From Gemmatimonadota bacterium (GTDB lineage: Bacteria; Gemmatimonadota; Gemmatimonadetes; Gemmatimonadales; Gemmatimonadaceae), in assembly GCA_028287235.1 (NCBI GenBank), contig JAQBQB010000018.1, positions 248,001 through 312,000 of the forward strand: 64,000 nucleotides of DNA, given 5' to 3'. The position numbers and the translations under genes were made by a program. How positions within the stretch are numbered: position 1 is the first letter of the stretch; each line of letters starts with the position of its first letter. Below, in pieces: positions 37,289 through 38,065 of the stretch. The notes under the pieces are model-generated. The model had not been told where the DNA came from, searched no databases, and worked only from the letters and a program-made list of their open reading frames with translations.

Positions 37289-37726
37289 TCACCGTGTAAA
37301 GAGGTACGTTCCGAATCCGCCGGTGCCGCGAAAGTCCCACGCCAGCCGGCCGCTTGCCGGCACCGTGATCACGGCGACCGTGTCGTTCGGGATCACACCG
37401 TGAAGCACGAAGGCCTGCGTGGGCAGCCGTCCGAGCGCGAACGTGTCCACGCGCGTGAAGGCCACCGCGGGCGACGTGCCTGTCTCGCGCGCCTCGGACG
37501 CCTGCGAGAACACGAGGTGCCCGGCGTCGAGAAACACGACCGAGCCGCTGCGAATCACGGTGGAACCGCCGGTGGCGGGCGTGGTCGCCACCGTGCCCGG
37601 AATGCTGATCTTGTTGACCGACGCCAACGAGTAGGCGCCGGTGAACGGATCGCTGGCCGGAGAGGTGACCTCGGCCGCGCTGCACGCGGCGGCAACAGCA
37701 AGGAGGGCGAGCCGGCGAACGCTCAT
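37289..37726 (-). CDS. Putative lipoprotein, unknown function
   Basis: 145 aa. MSVRRLALLAVAAACSAA has a lipobox-like AAAC at residue 15. The mature part is rich in Thr, Val and Gly with regular strands (YSLASVNKISIPGTV, SVVFLDAGHLVFSQ, TVAVITVPASGRLAWDFRG), suggesting a small beta-sandwich. No family is recognised. A structured RNA ending in a terminator lies about 100 bases upstream on the same strand and could act as its attenuator. Confidence 0.72.
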   Translation of the reverse strand: MSVRRLALLAVAAACSAAEVTSPASDPFTGAYSLASVNKISIPGTVATTPATGGSTVIRSGSVVFLDAGHLVFSQASEARETGTSPAVAFTRVDTFALGRLPTQAFVLHGVIPNDTVAVITVPASGRLAWDFRGTGGFGTYLFTR

Positions 37727-37824: not shown

Positions 37825-37872
37825 AAAAAAAGAGGTGGGGCCTACCGTGGCAAGCGCCACCGTAGACCCCAC
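37825..37872 (-). terminator. Rho-independent terminator of structured RNA
   Basis: On the minus strand a 17-bp stem with two mismatches (GTGGGG at one end, CCCCAC at the other, four-base loop) is followed by CTC and seven T residues. It ends the small RNA described at 37825-38030. Confidence 0.8.
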
Positions 37873-37923
37873 AAAACTCTTGGCCGGAACTGACAGGCTT
37901 CCGGTCGGCTAAGCTGTTGAGGC

Positions 37924-37968
37924 TTAGCGGCTTCCGGCGATCCTGCCGTTACGTGTTCCGCTAGACAA
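37924..37968 (-). CDS. 14-aa peptide with extreme Shine-Dalgarno
   Basis: TTG start at 37968, TAA at 37924. The peptide is MSSGTRNGRIAGSR, basic and Gly/Ser/Arg-rich. The ribosome site AGGAGGTGATCC (37981-37970) matches the 16S 3' tail over 12 consecutive bases, with seven bases from GGAGG to the TTG. That is far stronger than any other site in the window. Too short for family assignment. It could be a leader peptide or a functional small protein. Confidence 0.5.
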   Translation of the reverse strand: MSSGTRNGRIAGSR

Positions 37969-38036
37969 TGGATCACCTCCTCTGTTTCGGGTTCGACTTG
38001 ATTGATCGCGAGCGTTTCCTCGCGACGCACATTCGT

Positions 38037-38065
38037 ACCCTATCAACCGTGCACGGGTTCCGCAA
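38037..38065 (-). promoter_or_regulatory. Promoter of structured small RNA
   Basis: On the minus strand TTGCGG (38065-38060), 17-base spacer, TAGGGT (38042-38037). It belongs to the same TTGCG-17-TA pattern seen at 4894, 9124 and 27262. Confidence 0.5.

Follow-up and report, generated by a model that had tools for sequence, protein, structure and literature searches.

Leader peptides and attenuators, such as that of trp, combine a strong Shine-Dalgarno (SD) sequence with an open reading frame (ORF) of about 14 codons, which lies within alternative hairpins and is accompanied by a terminator. Rfam lists CC2171 (RF01867), an RNA from Caulobacter, as an sRNA gene, and its homologue in Mesorhizobium huakuii, MH_s33, is transcribed and was observed as a 215-nt RNA by RNA-seq (PMC5596092). 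In Caulobacter, 75% of the genes lack an SD, and two ncRNAs reported earlier (Landt) are in fact translated (PMC4117421). No function for CC2171 was found in the papers that we searched, and literature text searches for the motif described here, for CC2171 together with Caulobacter and for ribosome decoys returned nothing relevant. Extended SD sequences, in which pairing with the anti-SD is longer than usual, are found in mRNAs of Staphylococcus aureus (PMC13009471).

Here we describe an element from a 64,000-nucleotide stretch of Gemmatimonadota DNA, referred to below as the window, which resembles each of these systems in part. As in leader-peptide attenuators, there is a strong SD, an ORF of ~14 codons, alternative hairpins and a terminator; unlike them, the element has no run of regulatory codons and lacks a conserved co-oriented gene downstream, its conserved neighbor being convergent. 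Like CC2171, whose model consensus is cAAcaAucGAAAGGAGGUGAUCCAGUGUCUC, it has an intrinsic 3' terminator and the arrangement of a stand-alone sRNA gene with a short ORF behind a perfect SD, and the AGGAGGUGAUCC-A-NUG-UCU block of CC2171 is present in the window as AGGAGGTGATCCATTGTCT. CC2171 differs in its GTG start and its ORF of about 22-26 codons, whereas the window copy has a TTG start and 14 codons, and adds a 5' hairpin and the contiguous anti-SD GGATCGCC. In S. aureus, the extended SD serves initiation at protein genes, whereas here we are concerned with a tiny stand-alone RNA that has an internal anti-SD.

Features of the element in the window

The initial annotation of this locus had described a promoter, a perfect hairpin, an SD, a TTG-initiated ORF, a sequence duplication and a terminator, and direct reading of the minus strand from 38065 to 37825 located all of them, as listed in Table 1; a simple, generic scan found neither the promoter nor the terminator site of the window RNA. 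The promoter boxes, TTGCGGAAC...TAGGGTA, are kept in 6/6 genomes of the genus, in which the intervening DNA has diverged, and the 5' hairpin is found in this genus only.

Table 1. Positions of features of the element within the window
Feature	Position	Strand	Basis
-35-like box TTGCGG, extending as TTGCGGAAC	38060-38065	minus	sequence; box common to 6/6 genomes of the genus
-10-like box TAGGGT, 17-nt spacer to -35-like box	38037-38042	minus	sequence and genus comparison
5' hairpin, perfect 7 bp, TCGCGAG/CTCGCGA	38006-38025	minus	sequence, folding, genus comparison
Perfect SD AGGAGGTGATCC	37970-37981, plus A at 37969	minus	sequence; near-invariant in all relatives
14-codon ORF, TTG start, TCT second codon, TAA stop, peptide MSSGTRNGRIAGSR	37924-37968	minus	sequence
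Internal anti-SD GGATCGCC, codons R-I-A	37936-37943	minus	pairs over 8 bp with GGTGATCC of the SD
Duplicated CCGGAAGCC	37937-37929 and 37904-37896	minus	sequence
P2, ORF side	37960-37955 and 37947-37942	minus	MFE; within 37885-37960
P2, 3'UTR side	37890-37885 (with 37960-37955) and 37897-37892 (with 37947-37942)	minus	MFE
P3 hairpin GCTAAGC/GCTTAGC, stop codon inside	37908-37928	minus	folding and alignment
Intrinsic terminator	long GC stem 37872-37835, then T-run to 37825	minus	sequence, folding

The organism's own 16S rRNA (L269) has the 3' end ...GCGGCTGGATCACCTCCTTAAC, also read as GGCTGGATCACCTCCTTAAC, and the SD with its additional A (AGGAGGTGATCCA) is therefore complementary to that tail over 13 nt; the 12-base match reported previously is thereby borne out and slightly extended. 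Considered by itself, the 12-mer is within chance expectation for a 5.7-Mb genome, in which it occurs at 3 sites (the 16S antisense, one site within a CDS, and the element) versus about 0.7 expected. It is conservation in relatives that sets the element above chance. Folding of the window RNA gave z = -5.1 (0/200 shuffles), and both sequence and structure were found to be conserved in close relatives, which supports the earlier view that this is a real structured RNA, and one not previously described in the phylum.

Relatives of the element and their connection to CC2171

A DNA search of the Gemmatimonadaceae family detected copies in 59/179 genomes, although a chance origin is possible for the weakest of them. 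Use of a 19-mer with ≤2 mismatches extended this to 74 of the 179 genomes (43/105 good genomes; 19/35 genera) against 1 for the reversed control, and in every match bar one, which is chance-like, the mismatches were located outside AGGAGGTGAT. Presence is patchy by genus, and the element is missing from several well-sampled genera; it is therefore not a general requirement of ribosome biology.

A scan of 84,980 species for AGGAGGTGATCMWTTGYCTA returned at least 117 stretches, and the matches listed come from Gemmatimonadota, Alphaproteobacteria, Nitrospinota, Eisenbacteria, Neomarinimicrobiota and a few otherwise-named bins. By pattern search, copies were found in 70/298 genomes of Gemmatimonadota, 25/289 of Alphaproteobacteria and 26/77 of the Nitrospinota group (the phylum of a Nitrospinaceae bin), and reversed-pattern controls for the searches gave 0 to 1 matches. 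Left out of the 26 was one of 27 matches, L261, an ordinary long gene of 324 aa that resembles a 2-oxoacid dehydrogenase subunit and has a near-perfect site with the extended SD AGGAGGTGATCTA. Nearly all copies have a perfect SD, NTG-TCT and a frame of 11-35 codons, and a terminator is usual; NTG-TCT is kept across phyla. Exceptions among the species-scan matches listed are L090, with 121 codons, which is probably an ordinary gene, and L170, with 81 codons. The latter has seemingly lost its stop and L138 has an ambiguous base; these may be decaying copies or sequencing errors. The same 20-mer is also carried by 11 viral contigs (L175-L185) ahead of a conserved gene of 65 aa, and these, which represent one phage gene, were judged to be unrelated.

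At the Rfam gathering threshold there was no match in the window. The window copy scored 13.1 bits against RF01867 (E 1.1), for which the gathering score is 75 bits, and its alignment, which covers model positions 1-159 of 159, is not significant. Relatives from 2 groups aligned end to end with better scores: L029 of Gemmatimonadota at E 0.0035 and L251 of the Nitrospinota group at E 0.0088. The alphaproteobacterial copies found through the motif proved to be CC2171 matches, with 7 loci above gathering and more at E 2.6e-12 to 7e-4, and the RF01867 model also reached, end to end, alphaproteobacterial copies with ATG or TTG starts. Among 14 control genomes, CC2171 was detected in Caulobacter vibrioides only. 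By these sequence comparisons, the window element is joined to CC2171 through intermediates, although at Rfam's gathering score it does not qualify as a member. The copies from different phyla are likely homologous rather than convergent on a good ribosome site, because of their common NTG-TCT and architecture and the CC2171 scores. The description of the RNA as previously unrecorded thus holds for the phylum, but it overstated the isolation of an element related to CC2171. CC2171 itself can be recast as one probable lineage of a family that is spread over several phyla, and that is built on the strongest possible ribosome site and on a frame conserved in its existence, not its content.

Intrinsic structure of the RNA

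The 3'UTR forms a helix with the latter portion of the ORF (P2 in the window RNA), and this helix covaries in 3 lineages, with 0/500 shuffles in each. In the 14-codon Gemmatimonadaceae copies, 10/11 pairs of the main helix have changed on both sides, and the covariation value was 0.386 versus 0.178 for shuffled alignments. In the 21-codon group the helix is 92.9% paired with compensatory changes at 6/10 pairs, and in the Nitrospinota group, where the stop codon is placed in the loop of the P3 hairpin inside the ORF:3'UTR helix, we observed 82 double-change cells versus 34 after shuffling. It had also been proposed that 2 hairpins could re-pair through the duplicated CCGGAAGCC; the duplication is present, but was seen only in this genus, and the ORF:3'UTR helix is the general feature.

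The internal anti-SD is a property of the 14-codon Gemmatimonadaceae group, in which 29/32 copies have it at p≤0.1, and of a few others, and is not universal. In the Nitrospinota group and in the 30/31-codon alphaproteobacterial copies, SD:anti-SD pairing was no better than in shuffles. In the window's family, 92.9% of the cells of the SD:anti-SD helix are paired, versus 22-54% in slid controls, with a predicted pair probability of 0.82-0.94, and L031 shows one compensated pair (GGTGATCA with TGATTGCC). The covariation test for this helix, which gave 37/500 shuffles, has almost no power, as there is no variation in the SD. The anti-SD shares bases with P2, and the 2 helices would therefore be mutually exclusive. 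Calculated energies were -97.1 kcal/mol for the closed state and -91.6 kcal/mol for the SD-open state, and about -28 kcal/mol for the duplex with 16S rRNA versus about -12 kcal/mol for an ordinary SD; the SD switch and its energetics are thus predictions of the folding model.

Proposed mode of action

We give roughly even chances to the proposal that the element is a ribosome-gated, stand-alone RNA, which would function through 30S binding or through its translation and not through its peptide. A regulatory RNA that titrates or senses ribosomes was among the possibilities raised in the initial annotation and is still the leading one, given that the element is stand-alone, that its SD, frame and stop are conserved and that its ORF:3'UTR helix covaries; the transcription of MH_s33 and the lack of Hfq in the family, described below, also accord with it. 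We infer that the window RNA is transcribed and translated and that it senses ribosomes. It would be a minimal mRNA that recruits a 30S subunit and is translated for 14 codons. When free, the RNA of the window genome and of its family would keep its SD masked in the 8-bp helix with GGATCGCC, which copies the 16S tail within the RNA itself. That helix would be outcompeted by a free 30S subunit, the tail of which could pair over 13 nt. Binding of the subunit would expose the ORF, such that P2 could form, and translating ribosomes would reset the switch, with the ORF:3'UTR helix formed or melted accordingly. The RNA might in this way act as a switch or buffer that responds to free ribosomes, and its output, in trans, would come either from the retention of 30S subunits or from the exposure of a region for pairing. 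A broader proposal, which we offer tentatively as a possibility only, is that stand-alone RNAs bearing a sequence complementary to the 16S tail, together in certain lineages with a copy of the tail itself, form a cross-phylum class that measures or buffers free 30S subunits by means of one minimal round of translation. Whether small RNAs sense or buffer free ribosomes in bacteria is a testable question raised by these observations.

Somewhat unlikely, in our judgment, is that the element is a trans-acting, Hfq-independent base-pairing sRNA of dual function, translated incidentally and with ribosome binding mainly setting its stability or exposure. The element is indeed stand-alone, structured, terminated and kin to a catalogued sRNA, and conservation of its peptide, as described below, is inconsistent. 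Also, no Hfq (PF17209) was detected in 179 Gemmatimonadaceae-family genomes, while control genomes matched as expected, and sRNAs in this family must therefore work without a recognizable Hfq. Yet the best-conserved part of the RNA is the ribosome site and start rather than a seed region, and the sequence following the ORF diverges fast between lineages. Co-occurrence of the element with bS21 (Ribosomal_S21) was uninformative because bS21 is near-universal. Some genomes (G114, G116 and G109) have 2 or 3 bS21 genes, and the window genome has a single one that scored 67.7 bits, versus about 80 in many relatives.

Conservation of the reading frame and of its product

Frame and stop are retained in nearly all copies, and frame lengths are constant within lineages, at 14, 17, 20, 21, 23-26 or 30-31 codons. 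In the Nitrospinota-group alignment, indels inside the ORF are all of 3 nt, whereas those in the 3'UTR are of any length. Peptides of the different lineages have only M-S in common, and the motif GATCGCC is read in 2 frames by different groups, as R-I-A or as D-R. Synonymous change in frame 0 was in excess of the other frames in the 14-codon group (0.33 vs 0.21/0.16), but not in the 21-codon (0.18 vs 0.29/0.25), 20-codon (0.14 vs 0.23/0.21) and Nitrospinota (0.16 vs 0.11/0.20) groups. On these alignments, purifying selection on the peptide is not consistent across groups, although some constraint is possible in the 14-codon group, given its frame 0 excess. With the frame kept, synonymous change not consistently favored and only M-S in common, translation as such seems to count for more than the peptide made, with a possible exception in the 14-codon group.

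These observations bear upon the earlier suggestion of a short-peptide mRNA, of which the conserved frame and stop stand and the functional peptide is weakened. That the RNA is the mRNA for a functional tiny protein, of 14 aa in the window, would accord with the retained frame and with the 14-codon Gemmatimonadaceae group, where RIAGSR-like ends recur beside the frame 0 excess; we consider it improbable in view of the other groups, which lack such an excess, and of the 2 readings of GATCGCC. Conservation of the start, second codon, frame and stop also argues against an antisense-like RNA that acts on the 16S 3' end in rRNA maturation or turnover, a role in which translation would be irrelevant and none of these would be needed. 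Complementarity of 12-15 nt to the 16S tail, which exceeds the requirement for an SD, does speak for such an RNA, but we hold it to be quite improbable.

Genomic context

The stand-alone character assigned above to the ribosome-gated RNA is taken from its neighborhoods. Neighbor genes were called by codon-position score; longest-ORF calling is unreliable in GC-rich DNA. In 10 relatives that have the locus, the conserved neighbor is a convergent dUTPase, and no homologue of the window's lipoprotein gene was present there. The next genes in other lineages, named by sequence inspection and not by profile search, are unrelated (xylulokinase-like, acyl-CoA dehydrogenase-like, MFS, XerC-like and a CPBP protease), and we saw no neighbor genes common to different lineages. 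Judged by this variation between lineages, the missing lipoprotein gene and the convergent dUTPase, the element is an independent gene for an RNA of roughly 200 nt and not a leader. For the same reasons a leader-peptide attenuator of the lipoprotein gene, as suggested in the initial annotation and by the leader-like anatomy in the window genome, where that gene lies about 100 bases off in the same orientation, is very improbable indeed.

Downstream genes are mixed in orientation, with 82 on the same strand and 68 on the opposite strand. A terminator-like hairpin follows 139/155 of the relatives' copies, versus 52/151 control windows, and the other 16/155 have no recognizable terminator within 150 nt. 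The lipoprotein-like gene of the window (37289-37726, minus strand) may be a recent insertion or a fast-evolving gene.
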